Shown here piece after piece: positions 13,064 to 24,968 of a stretch of DNA of 64,000 nt; positions within the stretch are counted from its first letter, which is position 1, and every line of letters begins with the position of its first letter. The notes beneath the pieces were generated by a model. That model saw only the letters and a program-made list of their open reading frames with translations. It was not told where the DNA came from and searched no databases. The stretch lies in assembly GCF_000721705.1 (NCBI RefSeq), contig NZ_JOJL01000039.1, positions 147,228 to 211,227 on the forward strand, written 5' to 3'. Both the position numbers and the translations under genes were made by a program. Origin of the DNA: Actinoplanes subtropicus (GTDB lineage Bacteria > Actinomycetota > Actinomycetes > Mycobacteriales > Micromonosporaceae).

Positions 13064-14446
13064 GTGACCGGCGGTGCGCGCTGGCTGGCCCTGCTGGTGG
13101 CCGGGGCGTTCTTCATGGAGATCCTGGACGCCACCGTGATCGCGCCGGCGGCGCCGCACATCGCCGAGGACCTGCACGTCACGGCCGTTTCGATCAATGT
13201 CGCGATCACCGCGTACGTGCTGACCCTGGCCGTCCTGATCCCGATCAGCGGATGGCTCACCGAGAAGTTCGGCGCGCGCCGCGTCTTCGGGCTCGCGGTG
13301 GCCCTGTTCACGCTGGCGTCGGCCGGGTGCGCCGCGGCGACCAGCCTGCCGATGCTGGTGGCGACCCGGGTGCTGCAGGGGGTCGGCGGGGCGATGATGG
13401 TGCCGGTCGGCCGGCTCGTGGTGATCCGGACGACGGCGAAGACCGACCTGGTGCGCGCGATCGCCTACCTGACCTGGCCGGCGCTGGTCGCGCCGCTGGT
13501 CGCGCCCGCGCTGGGTGGGGTGCTCAGCACGTACGCCTCCTGGCGGTGGATCTTCCTGGTCAACGTGCCGCTCGGCGTGGTCGCGCTCGTGCTGGCCCGG
13601 CGGCCGGTGCCGGACGTGCGCTCGGAGGATCCGGGGCGGCTGGACGTACGCGGGTTCCTGCTCGCGGCGTGCGGGATCGCGGCCCTGGTGTTCGGGCTGG
13701 AGGGGGTGGCGGCGGAGCGGCCGCGCTGGGCGGTGGCGGCCGGCGCGCTGGTGGTCGCCGTGCTCGCGCTGGCCGGCACGGTGCGGCACCTGCTGCGCGA
13801 CGACCGGCCGCTGGTCGACCTGCGGATCCTGGCGCTGAAGACGTATCGGGTGACGGCGCTGGGCGGGTCGGCGTTCCGGGCGGTGATCACGGCGATCCCG
13901 TTCCTGCTGCCGCTGTTCTTCCAGCTCGGCTTCGGGTGGAGCGCCGCGCGGGCCGGCCTCGTGGTGATCGCGCTGTTCGCCGGCAACGTCGGGATCAAGC
14001 CGGCCACCACGCCGCTGATGCGCCGCTTCGGCATCCGCGCGGTGATGCTCGGCTCGGTGCTGCTGTCGGCGGCGTGCCTGGGCGGGATCGCGCTGCTCGA
14101 GCCGGGCACTCCCCTGCCGCTGCTGCTCGGGCTGCTGTTGCTGAGCGGGATCTTCCGGTCCACGGGGTTCACGACCTACAACACGGTCGCGTTCGCGGAC
14201 GTGCCGACGTCCAGGATGACGAGCGCGAACACGCTGATGTCGACGGTCCAGGAACTCGGCGGCGGCCTCGGCGTGGCGGTCGGGGCGCTGCTCGTCCGGC
14301 TGGGCGCCGGGGTGGGCGCGGCCGGGATGGCGGCTTATCGGTTCGCGTTCGTGGTGCTGGCGGTGCTGCTGGCGGTGCCGGCGCTGGAGGCGTTCCTGCT
14401 CCCCCGGACGGCGGGCAACGTGGTGGCCGGCCGCGCGGAAGCCTGA
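13064..14446 (+). CDS. MFS drug exporter, DHA2 (EmrB/QacA) type
   Basis: This 460-residue permease has about 14 hydrophobic helices and DHA2 family motifs: FFMEILDATVIAPAAPHIA in helix 1 (the LD-TIVNVALP-type motif), SGWLTEKFGARRVF (motif A), ATRVLQGVGGAMMVPVGR (motif B/C region) and SWRWIFLVNVPLG in helix 6. The family exports amphipathic drugs or metabolites by proton antiport. GTG start one nucleotide after the phosphatase stop. Substrate unknown; no TetR-type regulator adjoins it. Confidence 0.92.
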   Translation: MTGGARWLALLVAGAFFMEILDATVIAPAAPHIAEDLHVTAVSINVAITAYVLTLAVLIPISGWLTEKFGARRVFGLAVALFTLASAGCAAATSLPMLVATRVLQGVGGAMMVPVGRLVVIRTTAKTDLVRAIAYLTWPALVAPLVAPALGGVLSTYASWRWIFLVNVPLGVVALVLARRPVPDVRSEDPGRLDVRGFLLAACGIAALVFGLEGVAAERPRWAVAAGALVVAVLALAGTVRHLLRDDRPLVDLRILALKTYRVTALGGSAFRAVITAIPFLLPLFFQLGFGWSAARAGLVVIALFAGNVGIKPATTPLMRRFGIRAVMLGSVLLSAACLGGIALLEPGTPLPLLLGLLLLSGIFRSTGFTTYNTVAFADVPTSRMTSANTLMSTVQELGGGLGVAVGALLVRLGAGVGAAGMAAYRFAFVVLAVLLAVPALEAFLLPRTAGNVVAGRAEA

Positions 14447-14638
14447 CCCGCGGGTGGTACCACGTTCGGGTGGGGCGGTCGGCGGAAGGTTGCCGCGCAC
14501 AAGGTTCTCATCTGCGTGAATGGCCCACGGACGGAACGGGTGGACCGTTCCGGCTACCGCCCAGGCGGGACGCGGAAAGAACCGAAATGGCTTACGTTCT
14601 TTCCCATGCTCGGCGATGGCGTTGGGGAGGCCAAAACC

Positions 14639-15022
14639 ATGATTACGTACGCAAGCGTTCCCGGCCGGGGGATCGTAGTGGCGGTGTGCGTGCTGCTCGT
14701 CGCGATCACCGTGGTGGTCGTGCGGCTCGGCCGGCGCGCCCGCCCACGCCCGGTCGACCCGCCGGCCGGGAGCGCCGCCATCCTCGCGCCACCCGCTATG
14801 GGCGGCCCGCCCGCCGTCACTCAGCCGACCGCTGCGGGTGGGCTGGCCGCTGTTAGTGAGGTGGCCGCTGTTAGTGAGGTGGCCGCTGTTAGTGAGGTGG
14901 CCGCTGTTAGTGAGGTGGCCGCTGTTAGTGAGGTGGACGTGGGGCCGCGGCGCACGGAGGGGACCCGGCCGGTCGGGGCCGCGCGGTCGCGCCGGGGCGC
15001 TGGGCGGGGAGACCGGGACTGA
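14639..15022 (+). CDS. Small single-pass membrane protein with AAVSEV repeats
   Basis: This 127-residue protein is not recognised. A membrane helix (GIVVAVCVLLVAITVVVV) near residues 10-28 is followed by basic residues (RLGRRARPRP), giving an N-out/C-in topology, then a Pro/Ala-rich segment. Five perfect 18-bp repeats (14845-14934) encode AAVSEV, then an Arg/Gly tail. The ATG at 14639 has a GGGAGG site 8 bp upstream; an upstream in-frame start is possible. The identical nucleotide repeats imply recent expansion, so the tail length is probably variable among strains. Confidence 0.6.
   Translation: MITYASVPGRGIVVAVCVLLVAITVVVVRLGRRARPRPVDPPAGSAAILAPPAMGGPPAVTQPTAAGGLAAVSEVAAVSEVAAVSEVAAVSEVAAVSEVDVGPRRTEGTRPVGAARSRRGAGRGDRD
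14845..14934. repeat. Five perfect 18-bp tandem repeats within a gene
   Basis: GGCCGCTGTTAGTGAGGT is repeated five times without a single change, encoding AAVSEV in frame. The multiple-of-three period keeps the frame open. The unit contains TTAG, unusual for this GC-rich genome. Confidence 0.95.
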
Positions 15023-17225: not shown

Positions 17226-18029
17226 GTGCCCGAAAGTGATCCATCCACAGCAACCGAGGTCATCGCCGAACGAGCACAGGGCAACCCTGAGCCCTCGCCG
17301 CCGCTCGGCAACGCCGACGTCAACTGGGACACTTTCGAGTCGGACGACTACTTCAAGCACAACTACGGGCAGCTGCGCTGGGACGACGCGGAGATCATCC
17401 GGATCATCGCGGACTTCTTCGAGCGGAACCAGCCGCGGGAGTTCAGCGAGGCGATCGACGTCGGCACGGGCACGAACCTCTACCCCGCGCTCACCCTTCT
17501 GCCCTACGCCGCACGGGTGACGATGTACGAGCGGGCCTTCACCAACCGGCAGTGGCTGACCAAGACGCTGGACGCTCCGCAGTCGTCCTGGAACGACTTC
17601 TGGGAGGCGATCAGCAAGGGCCGGCCGCCCTACGACCGGATCAACAAGCCGTTCAACGTGCTCGCCGATCGGGCCGAGGTCGTCAAGGGCAACGTCTTCG
17701 AGCTCGAGCGCGACCGGTACGACCTCGGCACGATGTTCTTCGTCGCCGAGTCGATCACCACGCGCGACGCCGAGTTCGCCCGGGCCGCCCGCAAGTTCGT
17801 GGTCTCGTTGAAGCCCGGCGCCCCGTTCGCGGCCGCCTTCATGCGCAACTCCTCCGGCTACCTGGTGGGCGGTCAGTTCTTCCCGGCGTGCTCGATCGAC
17901 AAGGCCGACGTCGAGGAGGCCCTTGCCCCGGTCGCACAGAGAGTGGAGATTAAGACAGTGGAGAGCAACGACCTCCGGGACGGCTACTGCGGCATGATGG
18001 TCGCGACCGGCCGGCGGAAACTCTCCTAG
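17226..18029 (+). CDS. SCO2525-family SAM-dependent methyltransferase
   Basis: This 267-residue methyltransferase of the NNMT/PNMT/TEMT-like group has motif I EAIDVGTGTNLYPALTLLP near residue 77, an acidic strand-2 end (VTMYERAF), and a motif IV region YDLGTMFFVAESITTRD. A conserved preamble WDTFESDDYFKHNYGQLRWD lies at about residues 35-55, where family members bind substrate and SAM. GTG start with a good GGAGGA site. It is the first gene of the conserved island, 53 bp ahead of the SCO2524-like gene. In S. coelicolor the homologous genes are neighbours numbered SCO2521-SCO2525; substrate is unknown. Confidence 0.85.
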   Translation: MPESDPSTATEVIAERAQGNPEPSPPLGNADVNWDTFESDDYFKHNYGQLRWDDAEIIRIIADFFERNQPREFSEAIDVGTGTNLYPALTLLPYAARVTMYERAFTNRQWLTKTLDAPQSSWNDFWEAISKGRPPYDRINKPFNVLADRAEVVKGNVFELERDRYDLGTMFFVAESITTRDAEFARAARKFVVSLKPGAPFAAAFMRNSSGYLVGGQFFPACSIDKADVEEALAPVAQRVEIKTVESNDLRDGYCGMMVATGRRKLS

Positions 18030-18082
18030 CACCGGAAGGCCGGAAGGCCTGAGCTGTCAAGCAGACCCACGGACGGGTAGCC

Positions 18083-19936
18083 ATGCAGATCAAGCCACGT
18101 CAACAGCTCCTCGACATCTGGCGGGCCACGGCCCGGATCTCCTTTCAGGACGAAAAGTGGGTCCCGGGCGGCCGGGACGGCAGCAACTCCATCAGCGACG
18201 CCGAGCAACTGCTGTGCATCATGGCGCCGGCCACGGAGATCCCGCTGTTCCGCCTCGACCAGCCGGACACGGTCACCGACGACGTGCTGGACGCGCTGCG
18301 CCCGCTCGGCGACAACCTCCAGATACCGCAGCGGCTGCTGCGCATCCTGACCGAGTACATCGAGCGCTACACCGCCGAGGACGGCACGCCGCTGTTCTCC
18401 GGGGGCAGCTACTTCCAGTCGTACGTGCCGGGTGAGGAGATCTCGCCCGAGCAGCGCGACCTGGACGTGGTCGACTCGTTCTCGATCTCGGTCAACCTGA
18501 TGCTGGCGATCGTCGGGTTCACCAAGATCTTCCGGCAGGTGGTCACCCGGCCGAAACTGCTCGAGCAGGTGGAGCTGCTGGAGCGGATGGCGAACCGGCG
18601 GTTGTCGGCCGCCATGGCCGGCCTGCTGCGCAGTTTCACGGTCAACGTGTTCACGGCGGACAGCAGCGACGGCCAGGAACTGATCCGCACGGTCAACCAG
18701 GAGCGCCGCCCGACCCACCAGGTGGTCGACGAGCTGCGCGAGGGGCTGCGGCAGATCAACGCCCGGCTGCGCGACGACGTCACGATCGGTTCCGGCGCCG
18801 CCGAGGGCAGCGAGCTCGACAACCCGAACCGGTTGTTCGAGTGTGGATGGTCGTGGGGCGTGGTCCGCGACGCCCCGAAGATCGAGACGACCGCCGACGT
18901 CGGCGTGCAGCGCGACGGCGTCGCGCAGAACGCGCCGTACCTGTACTTCACGACCGTGGCGCTGGACGCGATCCAGGCGCTCTCGTCGGAGCGGACCCGT
19001 CTGCTCGGCCTGCTCGACACCGAGCAGGCCCGTCTCGCGCAGTCGCTGCAGTTGCGCTTCGAACTGACCCGGTCGTACTGGGCCACGATCGCCACCTTCG
19101 GCTCCGGCCGCTGGCCGCTGGAGGACCTGCCGTGGCGGGCCACCGACGGCCGTGAGGCCGACTACTACAGCCAGCTGGTCAGCGGCATGGTCCTGCAGAA
19201 CATGCTGTCCGCCCGCGCGTCCAACGCGAACATGCGCCGGGTCGCCGACGTGCTGGCCGAGCTCGCCAACCGTGGCCGGCTCACCCGGCGCTCGACCGAA
19301 CCGGAGACCGCGATCGCGGTGCACTACCCGGGCCTGCACTTCCCGCTGGAGGGCAGCGAGAGCGCCGGCGGCCCGCGTCTGCAGTGGACGGTCACCGACA
19401 TGTCGCCCACGCTGTTCCGGCGCACGCTGACCCTCGCCGGGATGAGCACCGACGGCCCGACCCGCAGCAGCCTGATCGACCTGTCCGACGCCATCTGGCA
19501 CCACCTGAGCCTGCGGATCATCCGGCACGGCGACGACCACGGCCTGTGGGACTGGCCGGCCGGCGTGTTCACGTACGTGCGGGAGGGCGTCACCCAGGTC
19601 TCCTGGTACTACACCAAGCGGGTGGTCGACTGCCTGGTCACCGCCGCCAACATCATCAACGACCCGCCGCTGCGCAGCGAGGTGCTGCTGCAGATCGCGA
19701 GCGACCTGCTCAACGAGGCCGACCACCTGTACGACCGCGAACTGCTCAACGGCACCACGACGCGCGGCGAGACCCTCCGGCTCGAGCTGCAGCGAATCGG
19801 CTCGGAGCTGAGCCGGGCCCGCTCGGTCGTGCGCGAGCGGCCCGGTGTCGCGGTGGCCGTCGCCGAGGAGGTGCTGCGCAAGCTCGACCGGCTTTCCGCC
19901 GCCCGGCGGGCCGACAGCGGGATGGGCCCGCAATGA
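18083..19936 (+). CDS. SCO2524-family protein
   Basis: This 617-residue, predominantly helical protein has no signal peptide or clear membrane segment and no known catalytic motif. It begins MQIKPRQQLLDIWRATARIS, has aromatic-rich conserved-looking patches (SGGSYFQSYVPGEE; FECGWSWGVVRD; DEKWVPGGRDGSNS), and ends in a long charged helix rich in Leu heptads (about 550-610) that may form a coiled coil. The length and position before the variant P-loop gene agree with the SCO2524 family as I remember it. Its TGA overlaps the next gene's ATG (ATGA), implying matched production and possibly a complex with the P-loop protein. Confidence 0.8.
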   Translation: MQIKPRQQLLDIWRATARISFQDEKWVPGGRDGSNSISDAEQLLCIMAPATEIPLFRLDQPDTVTDDVLDALRPLGDNLQIPQRLLRILTEYIERYTAEDGTPLFSGGSYFQSYVPGEEISPEQRDLDVVDSFSISVNLMLAIVGFTKIFRQVVTRPKLLEQVELLERMANRRLSAAMAGLLRSFTVNVFTADSSDGQELIRTVNQERRPTHQVVDELREGLRQINARLRDDVTIGSGAAEGSELDNPNRLFECGWSWGVVRDAPKIETTADVGVQRDGVAQNAPYLYFTTVALDAIQALSSERTRLLGLLDTEQARLAQSLQLRFELTRSYWATIATFGSGRWPLEDLPWRATDGREADYYSQLVSGMVLQNMLSARASNANMRRVADVLAELANRGRLTRRSTEPETAIAVHYPGLHFPLEGSESAGGPRLQWTVTDMSPTLFRRTLTLAGMSTDGPTRSSLIDLSDAIWHHLSLRIIRHGDDHGLWDWPAGVFTYVREGVTQVSWYYTKRVVDCLVTAANIINDPPLRSEVLLQIASDLLNEADHLYDRELLNGTTTRGETLRLELQRIGSELSRARSVVRERPGVAVAVAEEVLRKLDRLSAARRADSGMGPQ

Positions 19937-20847
19937 TCATCTTCGCGACCAGCGACAAGGGTGGCACCGGCCGGTCCGTGACCAGCAGCAATCTGGCGTA
20001 TCGGCACGCGCTGCAGAGCAATGACGCCGTCTACCTCGACTTCGACTTCGGCTCGCCGACCGCCGGGGCGATCTTCGACCTGTCCGACGCCCAGGCCGGG
20101 GCGGACAGCAACGGCCTGCACAGCTATCTGGTGGACGGCGCTCCCCCGCGCCGGATCAACGTGTGGGCCGAGACCCAGCGGGAGGCCCTGCGCAACCGGC
20201 CGGCCGGCACCGGCCGGCTCACCCTGCTGCCCGGCGACCGGGGCCGCGGCGAGTTCGTCTCCTCGCCGTCTATCGTGGAGCGCTGCGCCGACCTCCTGGT
20301 CCGGGTCGACGAGGAGTACGACCTGGTTCTGGTCGACCTGAGTGCCGGCCGGTCGTACGCCACCGAGATCGTGCTGGCCGCGACCGCCCGGCCCGAGCTG
20401 CGCGAGGCCGCGTTCCGCTGGGTGGTGTTCCACCGCTGGACCCGGCAGCACATCGTGGCCGCGGGCAGCCTCGTGCACGGCGCCCAGGGCATCCTGGAGA
20501 CCGGCGCGCAGCACGGGCACGACCCCACTCAGCTGCGTGAGCGGATCGGCTTCGTCCGCACCGCGGTCCTCGACCCGGCCGCGCCCGGCCAGAACGGCCT
20601 GCGCCCCGAGCAGCTGGCCTGGCTCGACGTGTGCAACACCCGGCTGCAGGATCTCGCCGGCCGGCACGGGGTGGGCCGGGTGCGCCTGCTCGGTGAGGTG
20701 CCGCTCGACCCGGTGCTGCAGTGGCAGGAGCAGCTGCTCACCAACGACGACGTCTGGCTGCACCGCACCGCGAACGAGCGTACCGTCAACGCCTTCGAGG
20801 ACCTGGTCAAGAAACTCGTGGACGAGAACGACTGGGTGGGGCTGTGA
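19933..20847 (+). CDS. SCO2523-family variant P-loop (MinD/ParA-like) protein
   Basis: This 304-residue protein has the fold of deviant-Walker-A ATPases that position or assemble partners. The N-terminal loop reads SDKGGTGRSV: the signature Lys9 of KGGxGK[ST] is kept but the phosphate-binding Lys is Arg14. An A'-like motif VYLDFDFGSPTAG (residues 33-45) and a Walker-B-like strand LVLVDLSAGRS (near 134) follow. No membrane-targeting amphipathic tail typical of MinD is obvious; the protein ends AFEDLVKKLVDENDWVGL. ATP hydrolysis may be weak or absent. It overlaps both neighbours (ATGA upstream, GTGA downstream), so it is the centre of a tightly coupled operon. Confidence 0.88.
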   Translation: MIIFATSDKGGTGRSVTSSNLAYRHALQSNDAVYLDFDFGSPTAGAIFDLSDAQAGADSNGLHSYLVDGAPPRRINVWAETQREALRNRPAGTGRLTLLPGDRGRGEFVSSPSIVERCADLLVRVDEEYDLVLVDLSAGRSYATEIVLAATARPELREAAFRWVVFHRWTRQHIVAAGSLVHGAQGILETGAQHGHDPTQLRERIGFVRTAVLDPAAPGQNGLRPEQLAWLDVCNTRLQDLAGRHGVGRVRLLGEVPLDPVLQWQEQLLTNDDVWLHRTANERTVNAFEDLVKKLVDENDWVGL

Positions 20848-21788
20848 CCACCGCGGACGACCTGTTCGTCGAGGCGAGCGCGGTGCCGGTGGTCCGCTCG
20901 GTGGCGCTCTCGCACCTGTCGATCGAGCTGGGCCACCTCTACATGGACGACTTCCGGCTCGGCCCCGAGCGGCTGCGCGAGCAGTTCCGCCGGGTCGCGC
21001 CGTGGGCCCACGCCGCCGCCGGCCAGGTCCCCTCGAGCCGCCCCCGGGTCAGCACGTGCTTCCTCATCGACGACTACTTCACCCGGTTCTCCACGCCGCG
21101 GGAGGTGGTCGCCGCGCTGGTCGACGCGGCCGGCTCGGCGGGCCTGACGATCGACTACGTGGCACGCGAGTCCGGCTGCGCGCGGGCCGGCGGGGTCGAC
21201 GTGGCCGCGGTGGTGCGGGAGCATCTCGTACACGAGCCGGCCGAGGGGGTCAACGGCGGCCGTCCACCGGCGACCGAGACCGGCTGGCTGACCAACGGCG
21301 AGCGCTCACCGTCCGCGGCCGCCGGCGCCATGGCCGCGCCGAGGCCCTGGCAGCCGCCGCGGCAGAGCGCGGTGCAGAACCATTCGATCTTCGTGGACAT
21401 CGAGCTGTGGAGCGAGACCGCCGGCGGCCTGCTGTGGTCGTGCCCGTTCCTGGCCGCGGTCTGGCAGCTGCAGCGGCTCGGCCTGCTGCGGCACCTGGGC
21501 GAGCCGATCGCCGAGCCGGAGCCGGCCACCCCCGGGACGCTGCCGGAGAGCTGGGACGACATGCCGGCGATCGTGCAGCTCAACCCGGCGGCCACGCCGC
21601 TGCGGGCGTACCGGACCTTCACCGCGCTGGACGGCCGGTTCCTGCCGATCGAGCTGGCCGTGCGGACCATCCTGGGCCAGGTCTGGATCGACCCGGCGGT
21701 CGACGCGCAGGTGCGCGAGCGGGCCCTCGCCGAACGCCAGCCGCTGCCGGCCGAGCCGGTCGGCCGGATCGGTTACGCGTTCATCTGA
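20844..21788 (+). CDS. SCO2522-family protein
   Basis: This 314-residue soluble protein follows the variant P-loop gene with a GTGA overlap. It starts with a SHLSIELGHLYMDDF segment, has RPRVSTCFLIDDYFTRFSTPREVV (acidic DDYF patch near residue 75), a long Ala/Pro-rich loop (about 140-170), SIFVDIELWSETAGGLLWSC (near 180) and a C-terminal region FLPIELAVRTILGQVWIDPA. The repeated acidic/aromatic patches suggest a nucleotide- or metal-dependent enzyme, but no recognised catalytic signature is present and I infer no reaction. Its end overlaps the convergent membrane-anchored gene by 16 bp. Confidence 0.8.
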   Translation: MTTADDLFVEASAVPVVRSVALSHLSIELGHLYMDDFRLGPERLREQFRRVAPWAHAAAGQVPSSRPRVSTCFLIDDYFTRFSTPREVVAALVDAAGSAGLTIDYVARESGCARAGGVDVAAVVREHLVHEPAEGVNGGRPPATETGWLTNGERSPSAAAGAMAAPRPWQPPRQSAVQNHSIFVDIELWSETAGGLLWSCPFLAAVWQLQRLGLLRHLGEPIAEPEPATPGTLPESWDDMPAIVQLNPAATPLRAYRTFTALDGRFLPIELAVRTILGQVWIDPAVDAQVRERALAERQPLPAEPVGRIGYAFI

Positions 21789-22771
21789 CCGTCCCGGGCG
21801 GGCGCGTTCGCGTCCAGCTCGCGGGCCAGCTCCCAGAGCTCCCGGAACAGCCGCGAGTGCTCCTTGACCCGGTCGTTGTTGAGCACCAGCCGGGTCTCCG
21901 CGATCTGGGCCACCTGCGGGTCGGCCGGGGTCGGCGTCGTCTCGTACGCGAGGATGTCGTCGAACAGGATCAGATCGCGCACCTGGACCCGCAACGGCGG
22001 CGGCACGTCGAGCCGGTCCAGCAGCCGCACGTCGATCCGCATCCCACGCTGTTCGTGGTAGGCCTGCCGCAGGTACGGGTCGTCGGCCATGCTCGGCTTG
22101 TCCAGCAGGAAGATCCGCCGGACCCGCTTGCCGTCGGCCGCCGCCAGGCGCTGGGCGTCCAGGTAGCGCTGGCCGATCTCGCTGCTCCACAGGTCGTGGT
22201 CGACCGCGCCCAGGCTGATCGCGTCGATGCTGACGGTGGCGTTGCGGGTCAGGCCGAGCAGCCAGTCGCGGTCCTCGCCGTCGTACGTCGCGGTGCCGCC
22301 CTCGGCGATCTGCTTGAGGAAGTCCGACGTCTCCTTGATCTTGGCCTGGACGAACTGGTAGACGATCGGCGGCGAGGTCGGCGAGATCCGGGTCGAGTTG
22401 CGGACCAGCTGGGTGATCAGGTCGGTCTGCAGCGCCGACCGCTCGATCAGGCCGAACAGCTCGGTGGCCTCGCTGATCTCGTCGAACGCCTCGCCGATCA
22501 TCCGCTTGAGGTCGGCCATGCCGTCCTTCTCCAGCTGCTCCACCGCGGCCAGCCGATTTTCGAAGTCCACGAGAAATCGCACCATCAGCGCGAAACCGCC
22601 GATGAGGACGGACAGCAGGATGCAGATCGCCGGCGACTGGTTCAGCCCGTTGGTGATCAGGAAGGTGAGGCCACCGCTGACCACGGTCAGCGCCGCGGTC
22701 CGGATGACAGTCGAGCTGTCCCATACCCGCTGCGGTCGCCGATCCATGCCCACGGCGGCGTCGCCGCTCAC
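21773..22771 (-). CDS. Membrane-anchored protein of the conserved island
   Basis: This 332-residue protein has two close N-terminal membrane helices (VIRTAALTVVSGGLTFLITN and AICILLSVLIGGFALMVRFL) and a large cytoplasmic part starting with a coiled-coil-like stretch (DFENRLAAVEQLEKDGMADL). The remainder resembles small effector domains with HDLWSSEIGQRYLDAQRLAA and RVRRIFLLDK, which recalls phospholipase-D-fold regulatory modules, but no HKD motif is complete. The GTG at 22771 gives a GTGA overlap with the upstream gene; ATG 22747 is an alternative. It probably tethers the island's products to the membrane. Confidence 0.75.
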   Translation of the reverse strand: MSGDAAVGMDRRPQRVWDSSTVIRTAALTVVSGGLTFLITNGLNQSPAICILLSVLIGGFALMVRFLVDFENRLAAVEQLEKDGMADLKRMIGEAFDEISEATELFGLIERSALQTDLITQLVRNSTRISPTSPPIVYQFVQAKIKETSDFLKQIAEGGTATYDGEDRDWLLGLTRNATVSIDAISLGAVDHDLWSSEIGQRYLDAQRLAAADGKRVRRIFLLDKPSMADDPYLRQAYHEQRGMRIDVRLLDRLDVPPPLRVQVRDLILFDDILAYETTPTPADPQVAQIAETRLVLNNDRVKEHSRLFRELWELARELDANAPARDGQMNA

Positions 22772-23706
22772 TGCCGGATCGCCGCGGAGAGCGCCGCAAC
22801 GGCCCCGGCGGACAGCTGGTCGCGTATCCGGTAGACGAGCAGGTTCCACTGCCGGCTGAGGCCGACGCGGTTCTCCAGCACCGACCAGAGCGCGCGGGCG
22901 AGGTCGTCGTCGGTCGTCCTCGGCAGCCACAGGTGCAGCAGGTAGTCGATGGCCGGCAGCAGCCGGCGGATCACCTCGTCGCGCGGGAGCACGCCGATCG
23001 CGGCCTTGCGCACCTCCTCGAGCAGCACGGTCAGCAGCCAGTCGTGCAGCGCGATGTCCTCGGCGACGACGGCCACCCGGCGAGCGGCCACTTCGGACAC
23101 GGTGAAGCTGAGCACCCGCAGGTCCTCGCCGTACGTGGCGAAGTGGACCTCGCAAGGGCTGGGGTCGCACGGCTCGACCAGGGCCGTCCAGCGCAGCCTG
23201 GTACGGGCGGCGCGCAGGCCCGGGCGGCCGCCGGCCCGGTGGTTGCGCTGCACCCGGTCGGCCGCCTGCCCGGCGATGCCGCCCAGGTCGAGCGCGTCGG
23301 CGTCGCGGACCGGCGCCGCGAACGCGTCGGCCAGCTCCTTCCACCGGGTACGCCCGACGCTCTCGATCACCCCGGGCCGGGTCATGTAGTACGACCAGGG
23401 CTGCCGCGCGCTCTGCTCGGCGCGGCGGATCGTCGCGTACGCGGACCCCTGGACCACGTGACCGTCCAGAATGGCGGCTCGCTGCCAGGCCGTGCCGATG
23501 CCGCGAGGCCGGCGGTTCGGCCCGGACGCGCCGATCGGGCAGTCCACCCCGACCGGCTTGTCGGGGGCCCGCACGTAGGACCGCGGGCGCTCGGAGACCA
23601 GCACCGCCTCGCCGGTCACCAGGTCGACCAGGCGGGCGGCGACATCGCCGGTCACCGGGCCACCCCCGCGAAGCACGCCGGTCTGCACCTCACCAGCGAT
23701 GAGCAC
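22768..23706 (-). CDS. SCO2521-family protein
   Basis: This 312-residue protein matches the SCO2521 family by position and by pattern. It starts VLIAGEVQTGVLRGGGPVTG, with a strand-rich N-terminal domain carrying GRVLVS-like segments (GEAVLVSERPRSYVRAPDKP), and a helical C-terminal half (RWTALVEPCDPSPCEVHFA; AIDYLLHLWLPRTTDDDLA). No signal peptide or catalytic motif is seen. A GTG at 23706 with GGGGG upstream is the start used. It leads the minus-strand pair with the membrane-anchored gene and converges on the four-gene plus-strand operon, so both arms belong to one locus. Confidence 0.78.
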   Translation of the reverse strand: MLIAGEVQTGVLRGGGPVTGDVAARLVDLVTGEAVLVSERPRSYVRAPDKPVGVDCPIGASGPNRRPRGIGTAWQRAAILDGHVVQGSAYATIRRAEQSARQPWSYYMTRPGVIESVGRTRWKELADAFAAPVRDADALDLGGIAGQAADRVQRNHRAGGRPGLRAARTRLRWTALVEPCDPSPCEVHFATYGEDLRVLSFTVSEVAARRVAVVAEDIALHDWLLTVLLEEVRKAAIGVLPRDEVIRRLLPAIDYLLHLWLPRTTDDDLARALWSVLENRVGLSRQWNLLVYRIRDQLSAGAVAALSAAIRQ

Positions 23707-23999
23707 GTCAAGGCCCCCTATCCTCGACGGCGGGGACCCGGGAAGGAGCGATGGACGCGGCACGATCAGCGATGACCTTGACTTCCCGACGGCACGTCCC
23801 CGGCCGCACGACGTCAGCCGTTCGATTGGAACCCAAAGGTCCGCGGAATGCAACCCTGTGTGACTGCGCGGAAACTTCGGGTCATAGTTCCTACCATCCA
23901 AACGGGATAACGGACAAGCATGTGACGCCATTGTCTTCAGTCGCCGTAGTTTTCTTCCCGGCCCTATGATCATCCATCGACCGTCGTTAGCGTCGTAGC

Positions 24000-24968
24000 G
24001 TGGCCCAAATCCGTCCCCACGCGCTGATCATCGGCGCCGGCGTCTCCGGCCTGACCACGGCCGTGCGCCTGGCCGAGGAGAACGTGCGCGTCCGCGTCCG
24101 CGCCGAGAAGGACCCGGGCCATACGAACTCGGCCGCCGCCGGGGCGATCTGGGACCCGATCTACGCCAACCATCCGAAGGTCGGGGCGTGGGCCGCCCGC
24201 AGCTACGAGGTCTTCCGACGGATGGCGGAGGAGGACTTCCCCGGGGTGCGGCTGGTCGACGGCGTGGAGGCGTCGCGCGAGCCGATCACGTCGCCGGACT
24301 GGGCGCGGGGGCTGCCCGGGTTCCGCGAGTGCACGCCCGACGAGCTGCCCGCCGGCTTCGCACACGGGTGGCACTACACGGCGCCGATCATCGACATGCC
24401 GCCGTACCTCGCGGCGCTCGAGGCGATGGTCCGGGCGCCCGGCGGCGACCTGCGCTTCGGCAGCCGGCTGTCGTCGCTCGAGGAGGGCTTCGCCGACGCC
24501 GACATCGTGATCAACTGCAGCGGCGCCGGCGCCCGGGAGCTGGTGCCCGATCCCGAGGTGCGCCCGATCCGCGGGCAGCTGGTGGCGATCGACAACCCGG
24601 GGCACGCCGAGTTCTTCGCCGAGCACACCGTGGAGCTCGGCGAGATGATCTACCTGCTGCCGCAGGGCGACACGCTCCTGCTGGGCGGCAGCGCCGAGGA
24701 GGGCATCGCCGATCCCGAGCCGGACCCGCGGGTGGCCGACGAGATCGTGAAACGCTGCGGCGACATCTTCCCCGAGATCCGGAACGCGCCGATCCTCGGC
24801 AACCGGGGTGGCATCCGCCCGTCGCGCTCGATGATCCGCCTGGAGCACGAGGACCGCGGCGACCGGCACATCGTGCACAACTACGGGCACAGCGGCGCCG
24901 GGGTGAGCCTCTCCTGGGGCTGCGCCGACGACGTCACGGCGATCGTGCTGGGCCTACTCGGGCGGTGA
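24000..24968 (+). CDS. D-amino-acid oxidase
   Basis: This 322-residue FAD enzyme deaminates D-amino acids to keto acids, giving hydrogen peroxide. The N-terminal dinucleotide motif is ALIIGAGVSGLTTAVRLAE; family signatures follow: AGAIWDPIYANHP, DIVINCSGAGARELVPD, VRPIRGQLVAID, GNRGGIRPSRSMIRLE (substrate-binding Arg) and VHNYGHSGAGVSLSWGCA (C-terminal FAD signature). Length matches bacterial DAAO. GTG start; no strong ribosome site. Its last 15 bp overlap the convergent regulator gene. It has no evident link to the preceding island. Confidence 0.94.
   Translation: MAQIRPHALIIGAGVSGLTTAVRLAEENVRVRVRAEKDPGHTNSAAAGAIWDPIYANHPKVGAWAARSYEVFRRMAEEDFPGVRLVDGVEASREPITSPDWARGLPGFRECTPDELPAGFAHGWHYTAPIIDMPPYLAALEAMVRAPGGDLRFGSRLSSLEEGFADADIVINCSGAGARELVPDPEVRPIRGQLVAIDNPGHAEFFAEHTVELGEMIYLLPQGDTLLLGGSAEEGIADPEPDPRVADEIVKRCGDIFPEIRNAPILGNRGGIRPSRSMIRLEHEDRGDRHIVHNYGHSGAGVSLSWGCADDVTAIVLGLLGR

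Follow-up and report, generated by a model that had tools for sequence, protein, structure and literature searches.

The families SCO2521 to SCO2525 (NF040564–NF040568), which carry locus-tag names only, are the closest described counterparts of the gene cassette analysed here, which lies in a stretch of 64,000 nucleotides of Actinoplanes subtropicus DNA on contig NZ_JOJL01000039.1 (the whole of this stretch is called the window below). In the work of Gehring et al. 2004, SCO2525 of Streptomyces coelicolor reportedly influences colony growth and development. An effect of SCO2525 on growth and morphology is also reported by literature citing earlier work; within this literature, PMC11472566 cites Gehring et al. 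2004 for SCO2525 and assigns the S. coelicolor operon sco2521-sco2526 to the HupS regulon, and PMC3017869 mentions SCO2525 in a discussion of S-adenosylmethionine (SAM), differentiation and antibiotic production. A developmental role for SCO2525 is in print, and the statement in the original prediction, made from the sequence of the window, that none of the five families had a known published role is wrong for SCO2525. The open-access literature searched contained no mention of KGGVGR, DUF6879, SCO2520 or three of the SCO family names.

Five of the seven genes of the cassette score above the curated NCBIfam cut-offs as members of the SCO2525, SCO2524, SCO2523, SCO2522 and SCO2521 families, as originally predicted; this set does not include the membrane protein TM6, the D-amino-acid oxidase or the alternative STAND protein described below. 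The KGGVGR-motif ATPases linked to FxSxx-COOH peptide systems share the KGGxGR P-loop variant of SCO2523, which matches their family (NF047398, AAA_KGGVGR) at 39.5 bits, below the cut-off of 90. Nucleoside triphosphate (NTP)-dependent conflict systems resemble the cassette in their exchangeable modules, STAND proteins, MinD/ParA-like domains and occurrence in multicellular bacteria, as described in PMC7159879, but DUF4062 and DUF6879 are not named in that text, and scans reported no vWA, MoxR or effector-associated domain for the first six proteins of the window cassette. We find a conserved core of SCO2524, SCO2523, SCO2522 and SCO2521 linked to an exchangeable module, which in the window comprises TM6, the SCO2525 methyltransferase and an oxidase; in a sister lineage this core carries a STAND protein in the place of TM6.

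Composition and conservation of the cassette

The cassette is laid out in the window as follows.

17226-18029, plus strand: SCO2525 family SAM-dependent methyltransferase, by sequence of the NNMT/PNMT/TEMT superfamily of small-amine N-methyltransferases (NF040568, PF01234 and Protein Data Bank (PDB) matches)
18083-19936, plus strand: member of the SCO2524 family with a predicted (alpha/alpha)6 toroid fold (NCBIfam score and model)
19933-20847, plus strand: SCO2523 family variant P-loop (SIMIBI/MinD-like) protein with the deviant motif KGGTGRS (NF040564)
20844-21788, plus strand: member of the SCO2522 family, whose predicted Rossmann fold is class I aminoacyl-tRNA-synthetase-like (NCBIfam score and one model)
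21773-21788, both strands: 16-bp convergent overlap of the SCO2522 and TM6 reading frames (coordinates in the sequence)
21773-22771, minus strand: TM6, the sixth gene, a membrane protein with a C-terminal DUF6879 domain, possibly inactive and PLD-like (DUF6879 score and linkage)
22768-23706, minus strand: SCO2521 family protein (NF040565)
23707-23999: gap of 293 bp separating SCO2521 from the oxidase gene, the two being divergent (coordinates)
24000-24968, plus strand: D-amino-acid oxidase of the flavin adenine dinucleotide (FAD)-dependent DAO family, the seventh gene, divergent from SCO2521 (PF01266, PDB entry 6kbp and linkage)

The six originally predicted reading frames, their strands, the ATGA/GTGA overlaps and the convergent overlap are all present in the sequence. 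An ATGA overlap at 19933-19936 joins SCO2524 to SCO2523, a GTGA overlap at 20844-20847 joins SCO2523 to SCO2522, and a second GTGA overlap at 22768-22771 joins SCO2521 to TM6, both on the minus strand, with GTG at 22771-22769 as the TM6 start codon. The SCO2521 frame stays open up to an ATG at 23973, and the start at 23706 is a choice. The six-gene interval is probably too short, given the seventh gene, and the coordinates suggest that 23707-23999 is likely a promoter region shared by SCO2521 and the oxidase.

A search with the SCO2524 alignment found 438 relatives in genome contigs, the best 79 loci of which were kept and combined with the window and with hand-picked regions partly chosen for missing TM6. 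Removal of L145 and L152 (copies of L073 and L060) left 116 loci, of which 85 carry TM6, 19 a STAND protein, none both and 12 neither; further removal of the near-copies L219, L220 and L223 left the 113 loci used below, whose ratio of 84:17:12 (TM6 to STAND to neither) is not a population frequency, owing to the choice of loci. Family alignments contained 22-35 rows each, selected for diversity. Alongside SCO2524, SCO2523 is found in all 113 loci, SCO2522 in 111, SCO2521 in 109, TM6 in 84 and the methyltransferase in 63. The grouping of the first four is far beyond chance and their order is constant across families, while most flanking genes vary (some flanking families are also common to groups of genera). 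The original prediction that the genes belong to one co-conserved system is supported. Stop and start codons may overlap in 91 of 107 SCO2523-SCO2522 pairs and 40/113 SCO2524-SCO2523 pairs, and the figures are 15/51 for SCO2522-SCO2521 and 9/59 for the methyltransferase and SCO2524. Distance matrices from 30 loci carrying all seven genes, with near-copies removed and no species-tree control, correlate at r = 0.78-0.91 among the six families other than TM6.

SCO2524 is present in 29 of 296 genomes of the class and in 84 of 150 Micromonosporaceae genomes; the same 150 genomes are used throughout, and counts from them, like the Fisher p value calculated on these counts, ignore relatedness. On the SCO2524 tree the genus labels need 48 changes against a mean of 88.3 when shuffled. 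Rows named Actinoplanes need 6 changes, which points to transfer or paralogues within Micromonosporaceae. We take eight loci of one genus (g24) as Streptomyces because of their recO-type and leuA-type neighbours, which match the surroundings of the S. coelicolor cassette. Within the 18 kb covered, genes of both types, each type being named from one representative, occur in 5/8 of these loci and at least one of them in 7/8; the five loci with both therefore indicate a shared chromosomal place. A single chromosomal system with mostly vertical inheritance between families is favoured. Searches of phage and plasmid collections gave no match to SCO2524 at E 1e-5.

Several loci have individual features. 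One contig, from Sphaerisporangium sp. TRM90804 (L077), is titled plasmid and carries a cassette of the TM6 type. Additional copies of TM6, the methyltransferase or SCO2524 lie beside the main cassette in L045, L046, L056, L114, L115, L040-L042 and L047-L050, some of the TM6 copies being partial or split in two. In G296, G384 and G370 the SCO2524 match is split into two or three open fragments, as would be expected from decay or a sequencing error. Two SCO2524 loci per genome are seen in Actinoplanes solisilvae (L068 and L092) and in G408; in the DNA fetched for L092, SCO2524 and SCO2523 were the only cassette genes found. A gene family identified from one representative as GNAT/RimI-like acetyltransferase lies near the cassette in 19 loci (L093-L101, L114, L119-L136; e.g. 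L133:6146-6781), and L072 has a luciferase-like monooxygenase gene (13752-14660) between SCO2522 and TM6.

The membrane protein TM6 and its replacement by a STAND protein

TM6 of the window matches DUF6879 (PF21806) over residues 203-321 with 29.7 bits (cut-off 23.9) and reaches no NCBIfam cut-off; TM6 from the Streptomyces-like locus L121 scores 32.7 bits for the same domain. The window protein has two hydrophobic N-terminal segments, and among near full-length relatives at least one such segment is present in 83/83 and at least two in 52. Comparison with a PLD profile gave a weak match from one template (hhalign probability 28.5, P 6e-4, 148 columns), and the 32-row TM6 alignment has no conserved HxK and no HKD motif (HxKxxxxD) at the aligned place. 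Searching solved structures with the TM6 profile gave nothing convincing (best E 0.086).

The TM6-positive loci include all eight Streptomyces-like ones. For the genome-level counts we defined strong TM6 genes as the 52 matches of at least 296 bits, with one more of 235 bits added in the oxidase and STAND linkage counts (any TM6 match at E≤0.001 occurs in 60/150 genomes). At most 15 TM6 and 14 oxidase candidates per genome were scored (3 in one further search), and these counts are possibly too low. Strong TM6 genes are present in 49 of the 150 genomes, 47 of which also have SCO2524, and 37 genomes with SCO2524 lack a strong TM6. Of the 52 strong genes, 41 lie within 12 kb of SCO2524, and five of the 11 displaced ones are within 4 kb of a methyltransferase. 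TM6 usually lies downstream of SCO2521 on the same strand, and both genes are inverted together: they converge on the others in most Micromonosporaceae and are collinear with them in Streptosporangiaceae, in Frankia and in the eight g24 loci. In L128, L130 and L132, TM6 sits between SCO2523 and SCO2522. In 52 of 76 pairs on the same strand, the stop codon of SCO2521 overlaps a possible TM6 start ([AGT]TGA). It is very probable that TM6 belongs to the system, and the suggestion that the sixth, membrane-anchored gene was a missing component agrees with its presence in most loci and with its near-confinement to genomes that have SCO2524. We infer that the S. coelicolor TM6 is the neighbour of SCO2521 on the SCO2520 side.

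Seventeen of the 29 TM6-less loci carry a STAND protein of about 1450 residues with a DUF4062-NACHT-HEAT architecture (domains checked on two), encoded mostly between SCO2522 and SCO2521, and TM6 and the STAND protein never occur in one locus (0/113). The SCO2524 tree requires two changes of the STAND state, as expected from a single gain and a single loss; the exclusion of TM6 by STAND is therefore not repeated evidence, nor is a Fisher p value for TM6 against STAND independent support. At a threshold of at least 700 bits there are 28 STAND matches in 22/150 genomes, all 22 of which have SCO2524, and 23/28 lie within 12 kb of it. Genomes of the STAND type may keep a TM6-methyltransferase-oxidase trio elsewhere, as in G351 (L140, L141), G330 (L153, L154) and G385 (L219, L210).

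A D-amino-acid oxidase as the seventh gene

The oxidase matches PF01266 with 151.7 bits, and its closest relatives among solved structures are D-amino-acid oxidases (6kbp, E 7e-42). Its GAGVSGL, RPSR (RPxR) and HNYGH stretches align and are kept; we take these to include the FAD motif and the substrate arginine. Counting matches of at least 200 bits (82 in 75 genomes; 104 genomes matched at E≤1e-30), an oxidase lies within 12 kb of 40 of the 41 SCO2524 loci with TM6 and of 8 of the 45 without it, and such a gene accompanies 46 of 53 TM6 genes at no more than this distance. All five displaced TM6-methyltransferase pairs (L141, L154, L210, L211, L212) also have an oxidase. Near the cassette, it is found in Micromonosporaceae, in related metagenome-assembled genomes and in one Frankia (L093). 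The oxidase is linked to the TM6-type cassette in Micromonosporaceae, and we treat it as part of the system.

In 26 of 116 loci, most of them from Streptosporangiales (L058-L109, L117, L135; e.g. L079:15652-16857), TM6 or SCO2521 has a different FAD oxidase nearby, which is ThiO-like. It is possibly a parallel recruitment, or may reflect ordinary synteny, and it was not counted as a component since other flanks are shared too.

Properties of the methyltransferase and the core proteins

The methyltransferase scores 320.6 bits against NF040568 (cut-off 240) and 37.4 bits against PF01234 (cut-off 25), and its PDB matches are PNMT, NNMT and INMT, with E as low as 6e-7. The motif DxGxGxNLYP is kept, with D78, G80 and G82 invariant in a 26-row alignment. 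By sequence, the protein is of the NNMT/PNMT/TEMT type and resembles small-amine methyltransferases. Matches over the cut-off occur in 47/150 genomes, all with SCO2524 (64 genomes have some match).

SCO2524 (NCBIfam score 895.5, cut-off 300) is predicted to form an enzyme-type (alpha/alpha)6 toroid. The closest known counterparts would be the toroids of N-acylglucosamine 2-epimerase and D-mannose isomerase, from which SCO2524 differs in its identity of 6-12% and in having no epimerase family among its Pfam matches at E≤1; the profile found nothing convincing among solved structures (best E 0.015, YacP). SCO2523 scores 463.4 bits against NF040564 (cut-off 200) and 20.8 bits against minD_bact (cut-off 212.9), and the PDB entries that match it best are proteins of the iron-sulfur-carrier (Mrp-type) and MinD kinds. 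The stretch S7-D8-K9-G10-G11-T12-G13-R14 is invariant in 35 aligned rows, as are D36, D38 and D135; the signature lysine K9 is kept, the second Walker lysine is arginine in 35/35 rows (KGGTGR), and the MinD/ParA Walker A motif KGGxGK[T/S] with both lysines was not found.

SCO2522 (NCBIfam score 448.2, cut-off 200) is predicted from one model, and with no sequence support, to have a class I aminoacyl-tRNA-synthetase-like Rossmann fold. Conserved residues are D76, D77, D104, R108 and E109, and the chain terminates with its last strand. An ELGH stretch considered as a HIGH motif was rejected, being located within predicted strand 1 and starting with glutamate in 34/34 rows. The SCO2522 profile had no match to solved structures up to E 5. 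SCO2521 scores 282.2 bits against NF040565 (cut-off 150), and its profile gave nothing convincing against solved structures (best E 0.36). Profile comparisons of SCO2523 with SCO2522, SCO2521 with TM6 and SCO2521 with SCO2522 showed no kinship.

Discussion

We tentatively prefer, at somewhat less than an even chance, an explanation in which a four-protein core and an exchangeable module make or turn over an amino-acid- or amine-derived signal. A predicted toroid, the Rossmann-type SCO2522, an amine-type methyltransferase and a linked oxidase together suggest small-molecule chemistry more than positioning, and we favour the making or turnover of a signal that derives from an amino acid and is perceived at the membrane over MinD-like positioning. 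SCO2524, SCO2523, SCO2522 and SCO2521 would be the constant engine, with TM6, SCO2525 and the oxidase as its exchangeable module here and the STAND protein in the sister lineage. This engine would make or handle an amino-acid- or amine-derived small molecule, which SCO2522 would activate or bind, SCO2524 modify, SCO2525 N-methylate and the oxidase remove. SCO2523 may act as a nucleotide-dependent assembly switch and SCO2521 may dock the complex onto TM6, whose DUF6879 domain would bind the ligand at the membrane and relay its state to growth and development, an output that we propose because of the role reported for SCO2525. A more specific version for multicellular actinobacteria, which we consider rather unlikely, has an amino-acid-derived messenger made by SCO2522, its synthetase-like fold serving a purpose other than translation, together with the sugar-epimerase-type toroid and the N-methyltransferase, and destroyed by the oxidase; TM6 and STAND proteins would be interchangeable receptors, controlled by a SIMIBI switch without the second Walker lysine, and the messenger would govern development and possibly self-sacrifice.

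A number of results weigh against the signalling explanation. In the 30-locus comparison, the TM6 distances correlate with those of the other families at r = 0.34-0.52, which is a main result against a tight TM6 partnership; faster evolution or the choice of paralogues may be the cause. Under the original prediction, a membrane gene that is not co-conserved, together with a P-loop protein that neither interacts nor co-evolves with the others, would have meant that the genes are not one system: the co-conservation holds, and the co-evolution is weak for TM6. Both TM6 and STAND are absent from 12/113 loci (one of which, L105, runs off its contig) and the methyltransferase from 50/113. The oxidase was seen in none of the eight Streptomyces-like loci, it was found at 0/6 displaced TM6 genes without a methyltransferase in the DNA fetched (L149, L150, L213, L215, L216, L217), and 29 of its 82 matches lie near neither SCO2524 nor TM6 (17 genomes without SCO2524, 10 with it). 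The toroid fold of SCO2524 also occurs in the non-enzymes complement C4 and alpha-2-macroglobulin. SCO2522, whose fold rests on one model for which a Foldseek search found nothing at E≤0.001, differs from MshC and the class I aminoacyl-tRNA synthetases: it has neither the HIGH (HxGH) nor the KMSKS motif, it matches an arginyl-tRNA synthetase (ArgRS) profile with a probability of 0.1 (from a quick 45-hit ArgRS alignment including pieces), and at 314 residues it is too short for a separate tRNA-binding domain.

The DUF4062-NACHT-HEAT protein in 17 of the 29 TM6-less loci would also suit an anti-phage or programmed-death conflict system, with a constant NTP-dependent core and a membrane protein or STAND NTPase as exchangeable sensor or effector, as would the patchy presence of SCO2524 and the scattering of the Actinoplanes rows on its tree. 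Kaur et al. 2020 (PMC7159879) describe NTP-dependent systems mainly from multicellular prokaryotes, some of them with MinD/ParA-like domains predicted to be inactive. PADLOC models, however, fit neither the six window proteins nor four STAND proteins convincingly (13.3-24.3 bits, the best being OloA for one STAND protein); together with the lack of SCO2524 matches in the phage and plasmid collections (the plasmid-titled contig L077 notwithstanding), these scores led us to reject a known defence system. The shared chromosomal place in the Streptomyces-like loci, the clustering of genus labels on the tree and the effect of SCO2525 on growth and morphology, reported without any phage, speak against a conflict role as well, and we regard it as unlikely. 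The membrane-localised positioning or protein-modification complex of the original prediction, driven by a MinD/ParA-like ATPase, draws on the retention of K9, D36, D38 and D135 in SCO2523, on its Mrp-type and MinD-type structural matches and on TM6 being a membrane protein. It is set against the arginine in place of the second Walker lysine, the low MinD score, the description of MinD-like domains of conflict systems as inactive (PMC7159879), a methyltransferase that resembles small-amine enzymes and the linkage of an amino-acid oxidase; SCO2524, cast there as a helical partner, has a toroid of the enzyme type as its predicted fold. We consider such a complex improbable and the MinD-like version of it not supported by these features.

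The enzyme-type folds (methyltransferase, oxidase, toroid and synthetase-like) might instead point to a metabolic cassette without signalling, one that breaks down or builds a single amine or D-amino acid, with TM6 as a mere membrane anchor. Library scans show no transporter or known-pathway enzyme among the constant four, and plain metabolism hardly accounts for a STAND protein taking the place of TM6, which makes this account very unlikely in our judgement. That the genes are neighbours by descent with no joint function is scarcely credible: some flanking families are indeed common to groups of genera, but the core order persists across families while most flanks change, TM6 remains despite changes of position (L128, L130, L132) and strand, and displaced TM6-methyltransferase-oxidase trios occur.

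SCO2525 was reportedly tied to S. coelicolor development about twenty years ago, and the five adjacent families still have locus tags for names. If the cassette is one system, as the signalling explanation supposes, the old SCO2525 phenotype gains partners with testable chemistry and a candidate membrane receptor. A STAND protein in place of the membrane module on the same core would link a developmental system with immune-type switches.

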